Shown here: positions 12,701 through 61,602 of the stretch, piece after piece
How positions within the stretch are numbered: the first letter of the stretch is position 1
Layout of the letters: each line of letters opens with the position of its first letter
Assembly: GCF_030253575.1 (NCBI RefSeq)
Contig: NC_080558.1
Coordinates: 7,078,001-7,142,000 of the forward strand
Length of the DNA: 64,000 bases
Reading direction: 5' to 3'
Origin: Rhododendron vialii
Lineage: Eukaryota > Streptophyta > Magnoliopsida > Ericales > Ericaceae
The notes under the pieces: model-generated
What the model was told of the DNA's origin: nothing
Databases searched by the model: none
What the model saw: only the letters and a program-made list of their open reading frames with translations
Program-made: the position numbers and the translations under genes

Positions 12701-14888
12701 ATGACAACTGGAAAGAAGCGACCGCGAATTGTAAAAGGGTCCAAGGCAGGAGTAGAAGGGTCTAAGTCAGCAGTGGAATGTACCCACACCAATCCTTATC
12801 TCTATTTCCTGTACGTATTTCTACGACCATTATAGTTAGTTTGTTAATGTGTTTACTTCCATTTTGTATTGACCGTAACAAATGCATTTTCTACCTTTCC
12901 AACTGCAGTGACGCCTATCAGAAAAAAGCCAAAGCTGCAAATAAGGGTCCAAGGTTTATAATTGCAAAGGTTAGAGTTAATGCGGTTGTAGTTCGTATGG
13001 TTATTGGTTAAACTTTAGTGCATGGTATTATGAAATCATGTTGCCTCTCGTAATAACACAAATTTTTGTCTCCACTATCCAGTATAGCAAATTAGCTGCG
13101 GAAGTGTGGAAAAAGATGTCTGATGCTGAAAAAGCGCCATTCGTGGACATGGCCAAAGAAAGAAAGGTCCGCATTAACAAGAATGTTCTGAAGGAAAAAA
13201 AGAAAAATGCGCCGGTATGGTTTTGTATTTGTTGTTTTTGATATAGTTAATCATTATGTTAACGTATCATGTGTGTAACAATGATGGGTTGTATTAAATC
13301 TTAAACTCTCTATATGTGCAGCCGGTATTTCGGAGTCGGTGCTCGCCCTTGAAGTTGGTGAAAGTAAACGAGGCATTGACCAAAGAACAAAAAGATGCTG
13401 TTGAAAGAGTCGGTTTTGGTTCAATGCTTAAACTGAAGTGTCGATTGCTGAACCGTGAATTTATAAGTCGGTTGGTTAACCATTTTAACCCTGCCACCAA
13501 GAGTTTGGAGTTTGGGAGGGTGAGGATTTATACAATCACTCCAGATGATGTTCGAAGGGCATTAGGGCTTTCTTGTGGAACGATAGCAGTTCCGACGGAT
13601 TGTGAAGACAACCACTTTGAACACATTAGGAAGATGTTTGGGAAAGAAAAGAAACCGTTGAAGAGGGGAGTCACATTTGCAATGATGCAACAAGTATTCA
13701 AGACTGGGATTTTTGACGTGAAGTTTCAAACTTCGTACGTTCTTTTCGTGTTGTCTTGCTTGTTGTGTCCAACCACGAAGGATGTGGCCGCCACAAGATT
13801 TTACCCGGCAGTGCACGATTTATCGCAAACTCCTACATATGCATGGGCAGAATTTGTGTTTGATTGGTTGGTGAAAGAAATATCCAAGTACAAAAAGAGA
13901 AGTGCCAAGGTTGCTGATAGTAAGAATAAGAAGGATGCCTTTGGCGTTGGTGGTTGTGTGTTACTCCTAATGGTAAGTACATCAACGTTTTCTTTACCTT
14001 TCAATCATTTGCTATAAAACTCGTGTGTACTGTATTGTGACTCATAATATTTTTTTGTTGCAGCTTATATATTTTGACAAACAGCCAATGGGTATGAAGG
14101 TTGGGAGTGAAGGTGATCCCATGATTCAGTCATGGACGACGAAACTAATAAAAGAACGAATTGCAAAGGAGGAGAATTTGGAGTTGGTAGATCCTATTTC
14201 TGGGCAATTCCCTGAGCCTCGTCTTCGGCATCCGGTGAGAACTTAATTTGGTTGCCGATATACAATTGAACCATTTATGTCATTTATATTTATAACGTTT
14301 AGTCTTTAACCTTATGTGCAGCACGCAATTGCTGCATATCATGATTTGAAGAAATATTTTCTTGTACAAATGCAACAACTTGAAGTCTTGGATGCCGCCT
14401 TGATGGGTGATGTTCCTGAAACATGCACACGGAATCCATCCAAGAGGAAGGCCTCCAATGAGAGACAGAGTCCAAATAAGGGGAAGGATGTGACTGAGAG
14501 AAAGAATCCAAATGAAGATGATGTGGAGATGGGCAATGTAGATATGGACTTGGAGGACATTCCTTCAACCTCCACTTTGAATCCGAAGAAGGTTAGTGAT
14601 GGGCTTGACGTGGAGGACATGGATGCCGGCCGCATGAGTGGGATTGATCACCTTGTGTTTGCCCGCGAAATGTCGTTTTACTCTCCGGAGCACGTGATGG
14701 CGGATGTTGTACAACATGTGGAGGTGGAAGAACAAAGTGTGGTGGAAAAACAAGTTGAGGAAGAGGAAGAGGAAGAGGAAGAAGACGAAGAAGAGGTTGA
14801 AGAACAAGTCCCATTGACTCCGCCATTGAACAAACGGCCTCGTACACGTATTCAGAAATGGATCTCTCAATCAAAACTATATTCATGA
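12701..14888 (+). CDS. HMG-box protein fused to a plant-specific domain, six exons
   Basis: Spliced model: exons 12701-12810, 12909-12969, 13083-13214, 13322-13972, 14064-14234, 14322-14888. Every junction is GT-AG and all phases agree, giving 563 residues. Residues about 30-95 form an HMG box (NPYLYFLDAYQKK, GPRFIIAK, WKKMSDAEKAPFVDMAKERK), the minor-groove DNA-bending fold of HMGB and SSRP1-type proteins. Residues about 105-375 form a second domain (RCSPLKLVKVNEALTKEQKD, VGFGSMLKLKC, TPDDVRRALGLSCG, YVLFVLSCLLCPT). This resembles the N-terminal domain of many uncharacterised plant proteins, some of them linked to Ulp1-carrying Mutator-like elements. The C-terminus has a long acidic run (about 520-545) and a basic KRPRTRIQK likely nuclear signal. 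Function is unknown; nuclear DNA or chromatin binding is inferred. An upstream exon cannot be excluded. Confidence 0.8.
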
Positions 14889-26007: not shown

Positions 26008-27183
26008 ATGGCAATCGAAAGAAACCCGATACGTCGAAAACCTGATTGGGCCGAAGATTCAAAGCCATTGCCAAATCTCCCTCAAGAAATTATTGTCGAA
26101 ATACTCTCGAGACTTTCCGTCAAGTCTCTATTGCGATTCACGTGCGCTTGCAAATCATGGCGTTCTTTGATCTCTCATCCGAAATTCGCAAAAACCCATC
26201 TAAGTGTAGCATCGTTAAACACCGATTATACCCACGATAGACTCCTCCTAAGGAATAAAGGATATTACCATCCCGATCTCAACTCATGTTCTATTTCTGC
26301 TATTATGTATGAGCAATCTGCTACTGCTGTTAGTCTTGATTGCCCTTTTGTTGGATCTCCTGATTCGATTTCGATTGTGGGTTCCTGCAATGGATTGGTG
26401 TGCATCACTATTCACAAGTCAACGATAATTCTATGGAACCCATCTACGAGGAAAGCCAAGAAATTGCCCGAAATTGGAATGCAGCTCAATGAGCTCACAG
26501 ATTCCGAGCACGCTTTTTCGCCTATGTGGCTTCATGTTTATGGATTTGGTTATGACGAGTCTATTGATGATTACAAGGTGGTGGTAGTTTTCCATGTTAG
26601 ATTTAAATATATGCAAAGTCAAAATAGAGTGGCGGTGTATACGTCAAGGACTGATTCTTGGAGGAGGATTGGAGACTGTCCTCATTGTCTTGATAGGACT
26701 TGTTTAGGGAAATTTGCGAGTGGGGCACTCCATTGGATTCCGATTGTCCGGTCCAAGGACATTATTGTCTCTCTTGATTTGGCTAGAGAGACATTTGGGG
26801 AGGTTTCACAACCTGATTATGTTGATTCTTGTCGTAACTTGACAATGGATGTTGTAGGTGGATGCCTCTATACGCTCTACAATTCTAATAGATTGGGTGT
26901 TGAGCTATGGGTGATGAAGGAATATGGTATAAGAGAGTCTTGGACCAAGTTGGTTGCGATTCATGATAAGACACATTCATTGTATGGTCAGCTTTTCAAA
27001 CCATTGTTCATTTTGAAGAATGGCGACATTTTAATGGCTGTTAGGGGGCATTTAGTTCAGTACAATCCGAAAGATGGAAGTTTTTTTTATCGAACGGTTG
27101 ACAAGTGTTTCCTATCTTTTCGTGCTTATCCCTATATTGGGAGTCTAGTTTCACCCGACACTGATGCAGACAATAGAGTTTAG
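26008..27183 (+). CDS. F-box protein with F-box-associated domain (intact, fullest tail)
   Basis: 391 residues, intronless, predicted SCF ubiquitin-ligase substrate adaptor. Starts MAIERNPIRRKPDWAE. F-box at about residues 22-62 (LPQEIIVEILSRLSVKSLLR, CACKSWRSLIS). FBA domain about 100-370 with GSCNGLVCIT, LWNPSTRKAKKLPEI, YGFGYDESIDDYKVVVVF, DSWRRIGDC and VELWVMKEYGIRESWTKL. Unlike the other MATERNPI-type copies, it keeps the family tail SLVSPDTDADNRV, because it lacks the extra C found in them after the SLVSP codons. It also has a longer loop after KKLPEI than its paralogs. It is therefore a separate, older lineage inside the subgroup. Has its own promoter block. Target unknown. Confidence 0.95.
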   Translation: MAIERNPIRRKPDWAEDSKPLPNLPQEIIVEILSRLSVKSLLRFTCACKSWRSLISHPKFAKTHLSVASLNTDYTHDRLLLRNKGYYHPDLNSCSISAIMYEQSATAVSLDCPFVGSPDSISIVGSCNGLVCITIHKSTIILWNPSTRKAKKLPEIGMQLNELTDSEHAFSPMWLHVYGFGYDESIDDYKVVVVFHVRFKYMQSQNRVAVYTSRTDSWRRIGDCPHCLDRTCLGKFASGALHWIPIVRSKDIIVSLDLARETFGEVSQPDYVDSCRNLTMDVVGGCLYTLYNSNRLGVELWVMKEYGIRESWTKLVAIHDKTHSLYGQLFKPLFILKNGDILMAVRGHLVQYNPKDGSFFYRTVDKCFLSFRAYPYIGSLVSPDTDADNRV

Positions 27184-30356: not shown

Positions 30357-32030
30357 TAGAGGTGTCAAACGTGTGTGCCGTGCCGTGCCGTGTCATTCAA
30401 CTTCCGTGCCAACCGTGCTTTGTACCGTGCCCGTTTACTTAAATCGTATCGTGTCGTGCCGTGCCATTTTTAATCGTGTCGTGTCGTGCCCATTTACTTA
30501 AATTGTGTCGTGTCGTGCCGCGCTGTTTTTCAATCGTGTCGTTTTGGGCCGGGCCTATTTACTTAAATCATGTTGTGCCATGCCAGCCCGTTTTTAAATC
30601 ATGTCTTGTCGTGCCGTGCCGGGCCCATTTACTTAAATCGTGTAGTGTCGTGCCGTGCTCGCCTGTTTTTTAATCGTGTCGTACCGTGCTGGCCCGTTTA
30701 CTTGATCGTGTCGTTTCGTGCCATTTTTCAATCGTGTCGTGCTTCGTGCAATGCCTGTTTTACTTGGTCGTGGCGTTTTTAATCGTGTCGTGCCCGTTTA
30801 GAGGTGTTAAACAGGTCATGCTTTCATTCGTGCAAAAAATGAAGTAGATTGGTTATCATATATACTTGATCACACATAACAAAAAATTCCTATTAATGAA
30901 TCTACATCCCGATGAATGGGCTTCCAAAACCTAATAGACCCGAAAATTTGCGAGAGTGATTAAAACACTATGAATAAAAAAATGAACGGTATGGATCGTC
31001 ATAACTGTGTCGCAATCGTGTGGCTACCATACATTGGACTATAGCGGAATACATTGGTTTAGAACCAAATAAGTTAGTTATATAGATTTGAAAGGTAGCT
31101 GCAGACTCATTTTTTCGAATGCTCGATCTAAACCGTTACTATTTAAGATCTTGTTAAATTTATCATTCTCCCCTAAATAGGTGAGAATCGGATGTCGGAA
31201 ACCACATGATCGGAACACATTCGGTGCTTCCAAAGGCAATAAAGTCCTATAATGCACCACTTGAGGGTCGCCAGAGCTGTTTTTTGAAAATTTGAACCGT
31301 CTACCTTTTATGTGGGAGTGATTATATCATTCGTGCAAGAAATAAAGTAAATTGGTTATCGTTATATACTTGATCGCACATAACAAAAAATCTCCTATTA
31401 ATGAATTTACGTCCCGATGAAAGGGCTTCCAAAACCCGATAGACCCGAAAAATTTGTGAGAGTGATTAAAACACCAAGAACAACAAAATGAACGGTATGG
31501 ATCGTCACAATTGTGTTGCAATTGTTTGGCTACTGTACAAGATGCCCGTTTTTATAGAATAAAATTATATAATATATAGTAGTTGTTCCAATTAAAAGCA
31601 CAACAAGATTTTTGGCCTTGGTGGTTTGATATGTGTGTTAAGTCCTCAAGGACTTGGGTTCGAACCCCATAGAGATTATTTTTTTATAACTAATTTTGTT
31701 TCTTATTTATTATTAGTTGTTCCAAGTAAAAACATAACATGACTAGTGGCCTTGGTGGTTTGTAATGTGTGACAAGTTCCATAGGACTTGAGTTTGAATC
31801 ACATGGAGGTTTTTCTTTAAAATTAGTTTTTTTCCTTTTTTATTGTTAGTTGTTCCAATTTAAAAACTTATTTTTTATAAATTATGAAACTAAAATGCCT
31901 TGTTTTGCAACTAAAATTATTGTTAATTAATCACATTATATTTACGAGTCACAAAACAAATTATCTAATAATTTTTTTCCCGTGCCTTGTGTCATGTCCT
32001 TTCGTTTCCGTCAACCCGTGTTGACAACTA
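30357..32030 (+). mobile_element. CGTGCC-array hAT-like element, incomplete copy
   Basis: Starts TAGAGGTGTCAAACGTG at 30357 and ends CCGTGTTGACAACTA near 32030, imperfect inverted termini shared with the 50885-55534 element. Order: CGTGCCGTGCC-type array (30360-30800), one and a half units of a roughly 500-bp tandem repeat (about 30815-31545), two tRNA-like units, AT-rich sequence, then a short right end. No matching 8-bp duplication was found, and the expected right flank (ACAATACATGATAC, seen at 35.74 and 41.11 kb) is missing. The copy is therefore rearranged. No transposase. Confidence 0.68.
31611..31815 (+). repeat. Two tRNA-like (SINE-head-like) units inside the element
   Basis: Two units start GGCCTTGGTGGTTTG and carry a box-B-like GGGTTCGAACCCC (first unit, 31611-31690) or a diverged form (31738-31815), each followed by a T-run. 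A third unit is at 54588-54665 in the sister element. No cloverleaf with a proper acceptor stem was found, so not tRNA genes. Confidence 0.6.
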
Positions 32031-32139: not shown

Positions 32140-32660
32140 ATCACCATTTTTGAACCAAGCACAGTATCATCCGTATTAACAGCTTCGAGTTCTAAAATGA
32201 GATGCATGAGTACAATACATACTTTAATAGGAGAACACCTTAAAGCGGCTCTGATACCACTGTTAGAAATTGACGCAGCGGAAGTTCAATTTTGGATTAC
32301 CTCTTGGAAGTAACGACGACGGACAGGTAATGGCGTTCTACCTCGTTGAGAGCTTGCTTGAGAGAACCCCACGAATCCAGCTTGCTCCGGTGATGTGTAT
32401 ACTACCAGAGTTATACACCCATATCCACAATCTAAGACCAACAAGAGTGATAGAGATTTTTCCCGTGTGTTCCATGGCTACAACAGGAGTGATTTAACAG
32501 GGGAAAAACCAAAGGGCTTGAAACCTCCCACGAGAAACCAAAAAGCTTGAAACCACTGCCATGAATTTGCCCTTTTGGATTTCCACCGTAGAACACTTGT
32601 GCTCCCCAAGAAAACTCCTGAGTTGCCCACTCATGGGCGCATTGATTACAGAGTAGATCG
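32140..32660 (-). mobile_element. LTR retroelement relic: LTR end plus primer-binding site
   Basis: On the minus strand an LTR-like end CAATTTCTAACA is followed by GTGGTATCAGAGC, the complement of the initiator-methionine tRNA 3' end that primes many plant copia and gypsy elements. The LTR lies toward higher coordinates (from 32264) and the leader toward lower ones. Only this part remains; the far end of the LTR, second LTR and coding region are not seen. Broken and old. Confidence 0.6.
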
Positions 32661-40004: not shown

Positions 40005-40061
40005 GTGCCAAAATTAAACGTGTCGTGCCCGTGCCAGTCCGGCCCGTTTGACACCTCTACG
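40005..40061. mobile_element. Right-end fragment of a CGTGCC-type hAT-like element
   Basis: CGTGTCGTGCCCGTGCCAGT then GGCCCGTTTGACACCTCTA, the terminus of the 50885-55534 element. No left end nearby. The twin copy is at 49774-49812, so it predates the segmental duplication. It replaces the CGGCTGTTTACTTTC kept at 24.79 kb. Confidence 0.75.
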
Positions 40062-47942: not shown

Positions 47943-48065
47943 GATAGGGCCTGTAATGGGCCGAGGCGGAAACTGTGGGTTTCGACTCAAAGTATAAAGC
48001 GTTGTACCCTTGTAAAATTTTACTACAACTAGGTTTTGGTGCCAAACCTAGAAAAAGCAACATCC

Positions 48066-49190
48066 ATGGCGACAGAAAGAAACCCGATACTTCATAAAAC
48101 TGATTGGGCCGAAGGTTCAAAGCCATTGCCAAATCTCCCTTATGAAATCAATGTCGAAATACTCTTGAGACTTCCCATCAAGTCTATGCTGCGATTCAGG
48201 TGCGCTTGCAAATCATGGCGTTCTTTGATTTCCGATCCGAAAATCGTGAAAACCCACCTCAGTATAGTATCTTCGAACTCTAGTTATACCCACCATAGAC
48301 TCCTCCTAATAACTAATGTTCCCCTTTGCGATATCAAGTCATGTTCTATTTCTTCTATCATGCGGCATGAGCAATCTGATACTGCTGTGGGCGTTGATTA
48401 CCCTTTCGATCCTAAAGGATTTTGGATTGAGGATTCCTGTGACGGGTTGGTGTGCGTCCATACTGATAAGAAAACCATATTCCTGTGGAACCCGTCTACG
48501 AAGAAGTCTAGGAAGCTGCCCAGTATTACGATACCGGATGACTGGCAACCGGCATGTGGGTTTGGTTATGACACATCTACTGATGATTACAAGGTGGTGT
48601 TAGTTTTTAAGGGTGGATCTAATAGGGACTATCATCGAAATAAAGTGGCGGTGTATACGTTAAGGGCTGATTCTTGGAGGAGGATAGCAGACTGTCCTAA
48701 TTCTGTTATTGTGGCTGGTAAAGGGAAATTTGTGAGTGGGGCGCTCCATTGGACTGTGAGGGGCAGTTCCAGTGATGAGTTAATCGTCTCTCTTGATTTG
48801 GCTAAAGAGACGTATGGGGAGGTTTCGCAACCTGATTATAATAGCAATGGTGGTTTTCTTTCGACGATGGATGTTTTAAGTGGATACCTCTGTATGCTCT
48901 GCAGGCAGTGGCGGAATCATGGAGTTCATGTTGATCTATGGGTGATGAAGGAATATGGAATAAGAGAGTCTTGGACCAAGTTGGTTGCGATTCATGATGT
49001 TACACATCCATTGTGTGGTGAGTATTTCACACCAAAGTGCATTTTGAACAATGGTGACGTTTTAATGGTTGTCGGGATGCGTTTAGTTCGATACAATCCC
49101 AATGATGGAACATTTAGTTATCTAAAGATTCGTGGGTTTTTTCCAAATTATAGTGTTTATCCTTATATTGAGAGCCTAGTTTCACCCTGA
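48066..49190 (+). CDS. F-box protein with F-box-associated domain (intact, twin of 38329)
   Basis: 374 residues, intronless, predicted SCF ubiquitin-ligase adaptor. Start at the ATG of MATERNPILHKTDWAEGSKP, conserved across the subgroup. F-box about residues 22-62 (LPYEINVEILLRLPIKSMLR, CACKSWRSLIS, all key positions kept). FBA domain with DSCDGLVCVH, LWNPSTKKSRKLPSI, FGYDTSTDDYKVVLVF, DSWRRIADC and VDLWVMKEYGIRESWTKL. Differs from 38329 by scattered substitutions, so the duplication is recent but not brand new. Ends at SLVSP with the subgroup's shortened tail. Of all copies it has the cleanest F-box, but its promoter is the most disturbed. Confidence 0.95.
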   Translation: MATERNPILHKTDWAEGSKPLPNLPYEINVEILLRLPIKSMLRFRCACKSWRSLISDPKIVKTHLSIVSSNSSYTHHRLLLITNVPLCDIKSCSISSIMRHEQSDTAVGVDYPFDPKGFWIEDSCDGLVCVHTDKKTIFLWNPSTKKSRKLPSITIPDDWQPACGFGYDTSTDDYKVVLVFKGGSNRDYHRNKVAVYTLRADSWRRIADCPNSVIVAGKGKFVSGALHWTVRGSSSDELIVSLDLAKETYGEVSQPDYNSNGGFLSTMDVLSGYLCMLCRQWRNHGVHVDLWVMKEYGIRESWTKLVAIHDVTHPLCGEYFTPKCILNNGDVLMVVGMRLVRYNPNDGTFSYLKIRGFFPNYSVYPYIESLVSP

Positions 49191-50357
49191 CACTGGTGTT
49201 GATGCTGGAATCTGGTGGCGACACCATTAATTATTAAAGGGAATAAAGGTAAAATTGTTTTCTTTTTTTTCATCTCTTGCTAGATTTTCGCGCACTTTAC
49301 CTAAAGTTTCTGCTTTTTGTTGTTTACCTTGCTTTAGTACTCTTGTGATGTATTCAGTGTTTGATAATACAACCTTGCAGAAGTGTTCCTTAATTTGCTC
49401 ATGTTAATTTAGTGATGTTTAACAAAATGTGGTAAAACCATCTGTTAACTATTGTGAAAATTTTGGGAACATGAGTGAAAGATGACAGTTAACCCAACTG
49501 TTGATGCATTATTGATGTATGTTCTTGATATGGAATGCCTCTTCGTTTTGAAGTCTCATCCCTTTGAAATGGAACTCGTTACGTTTTTGTTGATAGGAAA
49601 TGTGTATTGGAAACTGAAATGGGTAGAGTCCATGTTTATTTTGTGCTCTTCTAACTTAGCAGAAAATCGATGTTGATTTTGGTGGAAGCAAGAAGATTCA
49701 TTTTTTTTATAATGCTTGGGGGACCTTGCTTTGGTTATTTTTAATCCTTCGGTCATTTGGACTGTGCCAAAATTAATCGTGCCCGTGCCAATCCGGCCCG
49801 TTAGACACCTCTACGTGGATTAGCTTATGTTAGTGTTTTACATGTTTTCAGGAAATGAGAATGAAAACGTGTGATCCCCATAATCGAATTGCTTATATTG
49901 TAGTCTCTGTGAAGTGAAGACTTGCACTTCCTTCGTGTTACAACTTTGTCCAATAATGAGAGCTTACTCTGTTTATTTTGCAATTGTAATGTCATAAGAA
50001 CCTAATCTTGTACTTGCGCAGCTCTGGAGGGAACCTGCACGACATGGTTCTTTGGGTACCTTTATTTGTGTAGTTATGGCTGTTCACAGTACTTGTCAGT
50101 GGTTAATCTAGTTACTATTTTGCTTCTGACAGAGCTTATCCTCTAGTAGGCGTGAGGTTGCAGTTAGTCATTGGACCAACCTCGAGGGACGAATGAGATT
50201 GTAACATCACTGGCGTTCTTTACAGAAGTACTCTCGGACGTAACAAAGGGACCGGCTTATTTGCACTTCAATATCATATTTTAGGAAAGAGCGGTATCTC
50301 AATCGTCCATCTCGGCATTTAATGGTCCAAATTTGTTGAAAGACTCTTACCGGTCTT
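48066..50357 (+). repeat. Recent segmental duplicate, copy B
   Basis: Partner of 38329-40594, same order throughout, including the hAT right-end fragment at about 49774-49812. Confidence 0.9.
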
Positions 50358-50610: not shown

Positions 50611-51339
50611 AACTATCGAGAAACTTAATTACACCCCGCGAATTTTGGGAAGTTATTTGTATGTTAATGCCCTTTTCGCTTTTATGTCTTGTAGCTTTGA
50701 AATGGAATTGATTATGTTTTTGTTGATAGGAAATGTGTATCGGAAACTGTCTTCTCCACCTATATATAGTGATAGCGAAGAAAAGGCTAAAACACTAATA
50801 TGAATTCGGAAAATTGATAGGAAGCAAGGAACAAAGTGGTGCTGAGGCATGATCCCAAATCAGAGCAAAGATGGGAGAAAAACTTAGGGGTGTCAAACGT
50901 GCCTGTCGTGCCGTGCCGTGCCATTTTCTTCCGTGCCAACCCGTGCTTCGTGTCGTGCCGTACCGTGCCCGTTTACTTCATCGTGCCATGGCGTGCCGTA
51001 CCGTGCCCGTGTCGTGCCGTGGTGGACCATTTTGCTTTGTCAGGCCGTGTCGGGCCGTGCCTTTATAAAATCGTGTCGTGTCGTGCCGTGCCCCATTAAT
51101 TAATCATGCCGCATCGTGTCGTGCCTTTTTTTGTCGGGTCGTGTCGTGCCGTGCCTTTTTTGTCGGGTCGTGTCGTGCCGTGCCTTTTTTTGTCGTGTCG
51201 TATCGTGTCGTGCCTTTTTTTGTCAGGTTGTGTCGTGCCGTGCTTTTTTTGTCGGGTTGGGTCGTGCCGTGCCTTTTTTGTCTATTCGTGCCGTGCCTGC
51301 CCTTAATCGTGCCATGTTGTGCAATCAATTTTCGTATAC

Positions 51340-53609
51340 ACATCACCAACAGGCAACCGATTTTCATCTAAAAATAAATCTTCCCAAAAAACTCACATTC
51401 CGGTGCGTCGGTGCCTTTAATGTTCTTAAGTTGTATATCGTAGTATTCAATATTTCGATCCTAATGAGTAATGATTATCCAGTGTCCTACGTGCAATGTG
51501 CATCCCCCTAAAAAACACATGCTCTCACAAATATATTCTCATCAAGGCACGCCAGTATTGGAGTCCAAGACAAGTGAATATATCACCAATTTCAATTTTC
51601 GGTTACCTCCCAGTCCACATGTTTCTTATAGTGCAAAAAATTAACGCTCGTGCAATGCAATCAAATAAACAGCTAACAAACTAACAACAAACTAACAGAC
51701 TGGAGGGGCTAGGCCGCCACCTCAACTCAGCAAACAGAATATGCGATGGGTTATGCCACCACCTCGGCTAAGCAATGCAATCAAATAAAACTAACTATAC
51801 TAACTAAAAACAAACTCAATATTTAGCCTGGCTTTGTTACACCTCAAGTTTGGCATAAAACCAAGTTAGAGGTATCCACCAAGTTAAATACGAGTTACTA
51901 ACACATAAAGTACTAGAGATTGGGTAGTCAATGACTCACTGTTCACCTTCCGAGAGCGAGAGAGAGAATGGATTCTGAAATGTTGGAAGGGCACTTGCTG
52001 GATCGAAAACAGCTACAAAAGCTATCCAAGTACACTATCCCATATGCACACATCGAGTACTGCAATCACACCTAAAAAAAAACCCAACTGTTAAAACAGA
52101 TCAAACCAACAATTTGGTAAAATAAAAAAAAATAAAAAAAAGAAGGAAAAAAAGAAACATACAGAAGAGAAGGGCTTTGTCCCATCTTACCGACTTTGGT
52201 ACGAGGAGTACAGATTCCATCTTAACGGCTTCGAGGAGTATGAGAAGTACAGATCCCATCTTACAGATCAAAACAGACGAACGAGAATTAACGAACCAAA
52301 ACTGTCCTAGAGAGCAATCAATATTCGACAATTCATTAAAAATTTCATACCCAATATTTTTCAATGATTCTAACGCCAAAAGTTCACCAACTTACCAATC
52401 TTTTAAACCCATAAGGACCCATAACCAATAGCATCGTTTAACCATAGCAAACGATGAAAAACGAAGCTCTGTACGCTGTCCAGATTTCCAGATTACAGGG
52501 CAATCTTCTAAAAATCACTATAAATTGAGTTCTTAATACTTTTGAATGATTCCAGTCCCAAAAGTTGCGTGAGTGAACGAAGCTTAAAAGGTATGAAGGA
52601 ACCCTAGTCAAATCTGCACTTTAAGGATGGTTAAACAGGCATTTGTCGAAGCAATACGAATCTGTCACGCATAAACGTGACAGATTGACACACCTCCACT
52701 CAAACGATCATAACTTTCGGTGTACTAAGAGTTTTAAGGCGATTCCAGTAGCAATACAAAGCTGACTTCAAGACCTCGAAATCGATATAAAGTTTGCATG
52801 AATCGGATATCAGACAAGAAAGTTACAGCCATTTGAAATTGGGCGCAAACCAAAAACGAGCAGAAACCGAGACAGATTCGTGACCAAACTTCTAAAATCC
52901 ACCATTAATTCAATTCTCAACGGTTTTGAGTGATTTCAGTGGCATTAGAACGGGCTTTAAGTCTACTCTATTTCATACGAAGGAATCAAAATTCAATTTT
53001 GAGCTTAAGAAGGGGTAAAACCCCAAAAACGAAGACCCTGTTCTGCAGATTCTCGAAAATGGATAAAACAAGCTCAAACAACGAAACAAGGCACAATCTA
53101 GATACATAAACACCGTATAAACGCATAACAAGAGTAAGAAATCCCTACCTCAAGGGTTTTGAGCAAAACCCGACCCTTTGACCAAGTCAACCGTAGCCCC
53201 ACGAGGTCCGATCATGATTTTTTTCGGATGGATAGGAAACCCGCCCTCCGTATAACAATTTTAAGTCTTGGGCTTTGTTCGGAATCACGGTCTAAGTAGA
53301 TGAAATCGAGGAGAGAAGTGGAGGAGGGTGTTTTCGGAGGAGGAGCAGAGACAGACGAGAAAGAAGAAGAAAAAAAAAAAAAAAAAAAGGGAGAAAAATG
53401 ATTTCCCGCGTTCCAATTCCAACATATATATCCATATTCATTTATTGTACTTTCACCCCTACACTAATAATTCCTTCACATCAACCCCCTAATCATATAA
53501 CCACGACATTATTCGTATTTCCACGTGTCACACCTTTACTAATAATTACAATACTTCTTTAAAAAAAAAATACGGTCCAAAATTACTGGTCACTACAGCT
53601 GCTAGGGCT
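51340..53609 (-). mobile_element. Possible gypsy-type LTR region inside the hAT-like element
   Basis: On the minus strand a start-like TGTAGTGACCAGTAATTTTG at 53609, a TATA-like ATATATATG near 53.43 kb and a long leader-like stretch look like the LTR of long-LTR Ty3/gypsy (Tekay-like) elements. Its sister element at 30357 lacks this stretch, which supports insertion. The other end and a 5-bp duplication were not found. No coding region. Could instead be native internal sequence. Confidence 0.4.
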
Positions 53610-53702
53610 TTCGCCTCTCATTTTTTTTCTATTTATACTAGTGCGTGATCATGTGCAACAGTCGCACCATAATCCATATGCATTCAATAAGGAAAAATTC
53701 TC

Positions 53703-54505
53703 GTAAAGTCCTATAATGCACCACTTGAGGGCCGCCCGAGTTGTTATTTGAAAATCGGAACCGTCTACCTTTTATGTGGGAGTGATTATATCATTCGTTC
53801 AAAAAATGAAGTAAATTGGTTATCGTTATATACTTGATCGCACATAACAAAAAAATTCTATTAATAAATCTACGTCCCGATGCAAGGGCTTCCAAAACCC
53901 GATAGACCCGAAATTTTTGCGAAAGTGATTAAAACACCAAGAACAATGAAATGAACGGTATGGATCGTCATACTTGTGTCGCAATCGTGTGGCTAGCGTA
54001 CATTGGACAATAGCGGAATATATTAGTTTAGAACCAAATAAGTTCGATGTATAGATTTGAAAGGTAGCTGCAGACTCATTTTTTCAAATGTTTGATCTAA
54101 ACCGTTACAATTTAAGATCTTATATAATTTATCATTCTCCCCTGAATAGGTGATAATCTGATGTCGGAAACCACGTGATCAGAACACATTCGGTGCTTCT
54201 AAACGCATTAAAGTCCTATAATACACCACTTGAGGGTCGTCCGAGTTATTTTTTGAAAATCGGAACCATCTACCTTTTATGTGGGAGTGATTATATCATT
54301 CGTGCAAAAAATAAAGTAAATTGGTTATCGTTATATACTTAATCGCACATAACAAAAAAAATTCTATTAATAAATCTACGTCCCGATGAAAGGGCTTCCA
54401 AAACCCGATAGACCTGAAAATTTGCGAGAGTGATTAAAACACCAAGAACAACAAAATGAACGATATGGGTCATCATACTTGTGTCGCAATCGTGTGGCTA
54501 GCGTA
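53703..54505. repeat. Tandem repeat, about 500 bp, one and a half units
   Basis: AAAGTCCTATAATGCACCAC, TACCTTTTATGTGGGAGTGA and TCCCGATG.AAGGGCTTCCAA occur at about 53703 and again at about 54210, the second unit being cut at GTGTGGCTAGCGTACAA. The same design occurs at 30815-31545. Confidence 0.85.
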
Positions 54506-54587
54506 CAAGAGGCTCGTTTTTATAGAATAGAATTATCAATTATGTAATATATATTACTTGTTCTAATTATAAGTACAAAAAAATTGT

Positions 54588-54665
54588 TGGCCTTGGTGGT
54601 TTGAGATGTGTGTCAATTGTCAAGTCCCTAAGAACTTGGGTTCGAACCCCATAGAGATTATTTTT
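54588..54665 (+). repeat. tRNA-like unit (third copy)
   Basis: GGCCTTGGTGGTTTGAGA followed by TTGGGTTCGAACCCCATAG and a T-run, as at 31611. Confidence 0.6.
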
Positions 54666-55542
54666 TTAAAACCCCATTTTTTAAAGTAGTTTTTTTTCTT
54701 CTTTTTTTCTATGTATTTTTTAAAAATCTTTATTAGATAAAACATAATGTATATTAGTATATGTGTAGTAATTGGTGTATTTTATTATTATCATGTTTGA
54801 ATTTTGATTCAAAATTTCTTAATCATATAAAATATTTTAAAAGCTTATTTTACTTAAATAAAAGGAAAAGATTAATAAATTATTGGATTATCAAAAAATA
54901 CATACAAGTAAAGTAAACGATAATCTAAAATCCTTTGTTTATTTAATAACAATTTTTTTTTTTTGGTTTTTCCATGCCTAGTGCCGTGCCATGCGGCCCA
55001 TGCCCGACGACGAGAACCGACACCGTGCCGTGCCCAACTAAAATCCCGTTCTACTTCCGTGCTCATACCCGTGCCCGTGCCGTGCCTAGTTAGAACCATG
55101 TCGTGACTCATGCCCCATCCTACTTCCGTGCCGTGCCGTGCCCGTCTAAGACCGTGTCGTACCAGACCAACTTCTGTGCCGTGCCCGTGCCGTGCCCCCT
55201 CATTTCCGTGTCCGTGCCGTGCCCCGTGCCCGTGCCGTGTCGTGTCGTGCCTGTCTAGAACCGTGTCGTGCCGTGCCGTGACTCGTGCCCCATTCCACTT
55301 CCGTGCCGTGCCCGTACCGTGCCCATCTAAGACCGTGTCGTGCCGTGTCGTACCAGGCCAATTTTCGTGCCGTGCCCGTGTCGTTCCCGCTCACTTCCGT
55401 GCCCGTGCCGTGCCGCGTGCCCACTATGACCGTGTCGTGCCGTGCCGTGCCGTGATTAAATCCGTGCCTGTGCCGTGCCGTGCCGCCTTTAAACGGGCCG
55501 TGCCCGTGCCGGCCCGACCCGTTTGACACCTCTAGAAAAACT

Positions 55543-61323: not shown

Positions 61324-61602
61324 TAGAGCTTTAAACAAGCCGATCCGAGCTACGTCGAGTTCGAGTTCTGCTCATTCATTAAACAAGCCAAAAAATTGAG
61401 GTTGATCTTGGCTCGAGCTTTAACGAACTGAGCTCCTAACAAGCAAAGTTTAATCATTTACTAAACGGACCTATTTAATCGAGCCGAGTCGAAAACTCGA
61501 GCTCGAGCTCACTAGTTTAGTAGCCAAGCCGAACGTTTCAAGAGCTCGAGCTCACTAGTTTAGTAGCCAAGCCGAACGTTTCAAGAGCTGCTCGCAGTCC
61601 TA
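61324..61602. mobile_element. Small hAT-like element with CGAGCTCGAG words, 279 bp
   Basis: Begins TAGAGCTTTAAACAAGCC and ends GCTCGCAGTCCTA. Flanks GTGAATAG and CTGAAAAG each differ by one base from the empty paralog GTGAAAAG at about 27.89 kb, so they form an aged 8-bp duplication. Contains a 45-bp tandem duplication (GAGCTCGAGCTCACTAGTTT twice, 61497-61585). Confidence 0.8.

Follow-up and report, generated by a model that had tools for sequence, protein, structure and literature searches.

The subject of this analysis is a 64,000-nucleotide stretch of Rhododendron vialii DNA (contig NC_080558.1, positions 7,078,001 to 7,142,000, forward strand; hereafter the window), and in particular the structure at 50885-55534 within it, which an earlier note, made from the bare sequence, had described as a non-autonomous hAT-like element with long CGTGCC arrays. 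A perfect 8-bp target-site duplication (TSD), GAAAAACT, stands at 50877-50884 and again at 55535-55542, identical on either side as the note had claimed, and brackets terminal inverted repeats (TIRs) of 15 bp, TAGGGGTGTCAAACG (50885-50899) and CGTTTGACACCTCTA (55520-55534), which are inverted and match with one mismatch. Judged by its sequence, the structure is a complete non-autonomous hAT element of 4.65 kb. Its features are given below, where L035 denotes an autonomous copy elsewhere in the genome and ORF an open reading frame.

50877-50884, no strand: target-site duplication, left copy GAAAAACT
50885-50899, plus strand: left TIR, the 3' end relative to the transposase of the autonomous copies
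50897-51320, plus strand: left subterminal CGTGCC array, 28 CGTGC and 0 GCACG in the first 500 bp
51623-51910, minus strand: segment 94% identical to the region downstream of the transposase ORF in L035
51930-53590, no strand: filler of 1.66 kb in place of the transposase gene
53599-54568, minus strand: block lying upstream of the transposase ORF in L035, 84% identical, with a TATA-like string near 53637
53704-54002, no strand: core of the first ~500-bp unit, period 505 bp
54209-54507, no strand: core of the second ~500-bp unit, 93% identical to the first
54569-54785, no strand: 217-bp stretch without counterpart in L035, containing the "tRNA-like" segment (~54585-54665)
54980-55519, plus strand: right subterminal CGTGCC array, 36 CGTGC and 0 GCACG in the last 500 bp, on the same strand as the left array
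55520-55534, minus strand: right TIR, one mismatch against the left
55535-55542, no strand: target-site duplication, right copy GAAAAACT

Boundaries of the element and its family

Searching of the genome (532.6 Mb, 13 contigs) with the exact 14-mer AGGGGTGTCAAACG returned 115 occurrences against 1 for the reversed control. Thirty-three loci with the terminal motif were analysed, namely the first 30 (3 kb each) and 3 others, 20 of the 33 being fetched also or only as stretches of about 10 kb. A second TIR together with a perfect 8-bp TSD was present at 26 of these loci, the window element included, and all 26 TSDs differ from one another; the boundary of the window element is therefore not a product of chance. 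The earlier note had held that other boundaries in copies elsewhere would speak against its 8-bp match, and the copies analysed elsewhere have the same boundaries. Some 2.9 kb outside the window there is a paralogous site lacking the element (L051, 67% identical), to which both flanks can be aligned; this empty-site alignment is not base-exact, there being a small local gap at the junction.

The remaining loci were of several kinds. No array adjoined the motif at L017 and L019, which apparently belong to other families, and no partner end was found within the fetched stretch for L001/L047 and L006/L033, while the stretch fetched for L030 ends before the outer end, for which there is a candidate just beyond it. 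At L021/L041 the TSD was imperfect, with 2 mismatches, and L025 has two ends and no matching 8-bp duplication. Among the complete copies, L007 and L020 (1144 bp) consist of nearly nothing besides the two ends, have one internal deletion in common and carry perfect, different TSDs, so that about 0.57 kb of each end probably suffices in cis. The ~1-kb miniatures of a second end type, defined below (L003, L008, L011, L025, L026, L027, L048 and L049), have an additional internal TIR-like copy adjoining an array and look as if they had been made from two ends.

It could be argued that the structure is another kind of TIR element, such as a CACTA or Mutator-like one, or a chance pair of ends, since subterminal repeat arrays are known from CACTA elements as well (passages of PMC4423477). 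However, the termini read TAGGGG/TAGAGG and the TSD has 8 bp, against the CACTA ends and 3-bp duplication expected, and the transposase within the autonomous copies is of hAT kind. Membership in CACTA thus failed, and this alternative, being already contradicted, is almost certainly wrong.

The autonomous partner and the interior of the element

A genome search for the hAT dimerisation domain (150 scored matches of 741 candidates) placed several matches 3-5 kb from the terminal motif. L035 is an element of 9647 bp with TSD GGCCTTCT, an intact ORF of 707 amino acids (aa), and ends and arrays matching the kind of the window element, to which its left end is 85% and its right end 80% identical. 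Its ORF matched Dimer_Tnp_hAT (PF05699) at 98.7 bits and hAT-like_RNase-H (PF14372) at 46.9 bits in Pfam, both above cutoff. Four sequences in PDB matched it at E <=1 (best E 5.4e-18), of which two are entered as Hermes transposase and two as transposase without further name, making the transposase of Hermes, a housefly hAT element, a sequence relative; NCBIfam assigned no family to it. An autonomous hAT element with the same termini had been named in the earlier note as something to look for, and what was a hunch from raw sequence is now tied to a defined autonomous partner.

Among 65 listed matches to the L035 protein, five are stop-free 707-aa frames, 99-100% identical, each lying in a copy with both TIRs and its own perfect TSD, all different. 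Beyond these, identity is mostly 94-95% in a second group and about 61-65% in a deeper clade, to which L040 and several stop-free frames belong. Near-identical frames at separate TSDs are strong evidence, from sequence, that this hAT family has moved recently in this plant genome.

The window element lacks the transposase, and the termini that it has in common with L035 enclose filler, which is the arrangement of a Ds2-type element. In addition to the segments listed above, one more block is common to the two and 92% identical. The tandem 500-bp units of the earlier note are present, and their description can be refined to two units with a 505-bp period and 300-bp cores that are 93% alike. The block containing them (53616-54673) is 86% identical to L040 (oriented 764-1824), whose transposase has only about 65% of aligned residues in common with that of L035; this disparity suggests exchange between the two clades.

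The filler was searched separately (46 matches listed; 40 of 1511 candidates scored). Among the listed matches, the full filler occurs at 95-100% identity in 9 elements, including the window element, and 4 further partial matches belong to family members. The other 33 are 75-91% identical, and 27 of them span about 1.0-1.3 kb of the query. By these matches the part from ~52268/52333 to 53590 is a separate dispersed repeat that can be called LTR-like (LTR, long terminal repeat). In three instances two copies of this repeat share a strand at a spacing of 5.5-5.9 kb, which is to be expected of the LTRs of a retrotransposon, whereas two pairs on C9 are neighbours on opposite strands, a misfit for LTRs, and the label was therefore kept at "LTR-like" only. 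The picture is that of a Ds2-like derivative which acquired, or was struck by, a portion of another repeat before it multiplied as a subfamily.

The 217-bp stretch at 54569-54785 may be another insertion. The segment in it that the earlier note took for a tRNA-like unit (~54585-54665) contains a string which we take to resemble an RNA polymerase III B box; the reading as a tRNA or structured RNA found no support, ARAGORN reporting no tRNA and Rfam no tRNA match even at E <=10. For at least 24 of the 43 scored genome matches to this segment, a match to the 500-bp unit is listed no more than about 60 bp away; the other 19 have no listed unit beside them. The segment may be a separate small dispersed repeat, like a short interspersed nuclear element or not.

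One-way arrays and their possible role

The arrays claimed for both ends are borne out by the counts listed above, and they measure about 430 bp on the left and about 540 bp on the right, with only 6 CGTGC in the 3.65 kb between the first and last 500 bp. The two ends together hold 64 CGTGC in the window element and 75 in L035. Noticed in the follow-up, and absent from the earlier note, was the polarity of the arrays. A script oriented 27 elements (the 26 with perfect TSDs and L025) with the CGTGC-inward end to the left, leaving the right end as the test, and in 27 of 27 the CGTGC words of the right end stood on the same strand although the TIRs are inverted. Elements of the first end type (14) gave CGTGC/GCACG counts of 342/0 on the left and 436/0 on the right; those of the second end type (13), which would belong with the deeper transposase clade (about 63% identical) through one linking element, L040, gave 264/1 and 287/7.

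Of all hexamers CGTGCC occurs most often, whichever end and end type is counted. In the arrays of 26 of the 27 elements (L002, below 1 kb, was dropped) there are 1091 perfect copies in 22,230 bp, or 49 per kb; the interiors of the 11 elements longer than 3 kb (45,469 bp) have 0.09 per kb. C>T and G>A changes make up 760 of the 911 one-mismatch variants in the arrays, a share consistent with cytosine methylation. The C>T changes fall at position 5 (438), position 1 (116) and position 6 (104), and the G>A changes at positions 2 (56) and 4 (46); T>G at position 3 accounts for 51. The change at position 5 is frequent enough to suggest CGTGTC as a possible second functional word.

The earlier note had supposed that the arrays grew by slippage and proposed a comparison of their lengths among copies. 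Growth, and loss too, are supported by that comparison. Between four family members and the window element the arrays show 6.9-21.9 indels per kb against 3.3-5.0 in the interior, about 2-4 fold, the counts being uncertain for the right arrays of the two more distant members because these align poorly (20-24% mismatch). The left arrays of the five near-identical autonomous copies are set apart by a single 71-bp duplication. Their right arrays show gaps of 6 bp, of 16 bp and, twice, of 5 bp, and 5 of 462 columns vary; the 707-aa frame does not vary in length among the five, coding constraint making it an unfair control. Array length is thus still changing among near-identical copies.

The reading that we favour, and hold to be quite probable, is that a recently active hAT family includes the window element as a Ds2-like, non-autonomous form, whose arrays are putative sites for loading the transposase. 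We infer by analogy that the CGTGCC arrays bind it. The autonomous transposase would act on the 4.65-kb form in trans, copy number and TSDs showing past movement only; it would bind the CGTGCC words through a predicted BED finger, the many copies raising its local concentration at both ends, and cleavage at the TIRs and insertion with 8-bp duplications would follow. As both arrays lie on one strand, the direction of the word is opposite relative to each TIR, by which the transpososome could distinguish left from right and pair unlike ends. Array length would drift as word-sized pieces are gained or lost in replication or gap repair, while selection may keep the word and tolerate its copy number.

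Known hAT systems offer several likenesses. Maize Ac/Ds shares the 8-bp duplications, short TIRs and subterminal hexamer repeats, and the AAACGG copies near each end of Ac (within about 200 bp) bind transposase cooperatively; Ds2 keeps about 0.5 kb of the Ac termini with mostly unrelated filler inside, as the window element does (passages of PMC3260210). Unlike Ac/Ds as described there, the present family has the word CGTGCC, another TIR and arrays of about 430-540 bp per end. In rice, nDart and Dart are likewise a non-autonomous element and a putative autonomous partner with TIRs in common and subterminal sequences that resemble each other, while the CACTA elements, with their comparable subterminal arrays, differ in termini and in their 3-bp duplication from the present family, whose transposase is hAT (passages of PMC4423477). 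The BED domains of Hermes bind short repeats, and its authors propose that one end is recognised first; STR2-7 of the left end are antisense and STR1-5 of the right end sense (passages of PMC10368747). If both Hermes ends are read inward from their tips, its repeats therefore seem, from those passages, to lie on one strand as here, in a weaker version: Hermes has 17 and 14 short sites, AT-rich ends and the word AAGT/AAGC, against GC-rich arrays of about 30-45 copies here (PMC10368747). The kind of object, a non-autonomous hAT element with an autonomous partner, is ordinary; its subterminal design is unusually long and almost strictly polarised. No description of the family was found in the open-access literature searched (array and TIR strings and topics, in the titles and starts of abstracts listed), which is weak evidence of absence, Repbase lying outside that scope; the array and TIR strings brought up one TIR-like 13-mer, in an Arabidopsis small interfering RNA paper (PMC3189211).

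Several points weigh against transposase loading by the arrays. The probable BED finger of L035 scored 20.5 bits for zf-BED, just below the cutoff of 20.6 (E 0.00049), and Pfam returned no zf-BED match in the shorter frame of L040. The 27 elements are related, and their polarity amounts to one or two evolutionary events, not 27. A Hermes donor with the putative BED sites inside the left end mutated kept about 70% activity, which speaks against the inner sites being strictly required, and its authors judge auxiliary transposase binding inside that end unlikely (passages of PMC10368747). Being rich in CpG, the arrays could also persist through a chromatin role or by passive amplification, not by binding.

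If amplification were the whole explanation, the arrays would be a by-product, a GC-rich minisatellite produced by slippage and gap repair and contributing nothing to movement outside the outermost 30-50 bp; the roughly 2-4 fold excess of indels and the differences of 5, 6, 16 and 71 bp among near-identical autonomous copies agree with this. Yet CGTGCC is the top hexamer at both ends of both end types despite the L035 and L040 transposases being only about 65% alike, L007 and L020 retained both arrays in 1144 bp, and a fixed strand at both ends is unexplained by pure drift, which together render the by-product explanation unlikely. Service to chromatin or replication, with the arrays as methylation targets, a boundary or a silencing platform and not as transposase sites, would account for the 760 of 911 variants expected of methylated plant cytosines; it does not predict restriction to both ends of the copies, CGTGTC is possibly a functional word and not decay, the 51 T>G changes at position 3 are unexplained by methylation, and the role known for subterminal repeats in Ac is transposase binding (passages of PMC3260210). 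We deem this service very unlikely.

By a further proposal, in our judgement quite unlikely, the one-way arrays would be a replication sensor making exactly one sister copy competent to jump. With CpG words on one strand, the words at both ends of one daughter would be hemimethylated alike, and those of the other daughter the opposite way. Maize Ac would offer a weaker counterpart in its reported chromatid selection: its transposase is reported to prefer one of the two hemimethylated daughters, and only the 3' end of Ac is reported as highly methylated (passages of PMC5371812 and PMC3878927). A milder version is that polarity encodes left or right end identity in some hAT elements.

That one-way arrays are a general hAT rule is contradicted by the one unrelated element checked, a hAT-like element of 442 bp in L059 (204-645 of the reverse complement, TSD GCCATATC) that is nested within a young autonomous copy, in its right array. 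It carries GGCTCG / CGAGCC words on both strands (10 and 9 over three counted segments), so array polarity is not automatic. In the window, a perfect 43-bp tandem repeat of 2.1 copies at 61499-61589 contains GAGCTCGAGCTC, like the words of this nested element.

With its many copies, polarised arrays, recent autonomous elements and 1.1-kb versions made almost wholly of ends, the family offers a natural test bed for what hAT ends require: why several hundred bases per end are needed, how the ends are distinguished, and whether replication-coupled methylation chooses the sister that jumps.

Related pieces and neighbours in the window

Three further pieces of the family lie in the window:

30357-32030, plus strand: decayed relative with one good left TIR, an array and a unit block
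40005-40059, minus strand: terminal stub of the family, within a local duplication
49774-49813, minus strand: duplicate of the 40005-40059 stub

All of them had been taken for related pieces in the earlier note. The first is indeed a relative, decayed and with its right end unrecognisable: no right TIR was found at <=3 mismatches and no matching 8-mer, and the one-mismatch 8-mers at 32229 and 32360 do not adjoin a TIR. The other two, noted then as 40005-40061 and 49774-49812, are stubs of the family as well, and their number needs correction. They lie near 40.0 and 49.8 kb in a local duplication, 93% identical, which also contains F-box frames, and so probably stem from a single old insertion and one copying event, not from two insertions.

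The window element lies downstream of the F-box frame 48036-49190, which forms part of a tandem F-box gene cluster (1421-2590, 26008-27183, 48036-49190 and neighbours) with many blocks of 65-93% identity; the F-box domain scored above cutoff in the three frames of the cluster submitted to Pfam. A further frame at 13316-14017 carries a plant mobile domain (36.6 bits against a cutoff of 34.9), a domain often present in transposon-related plant genes.

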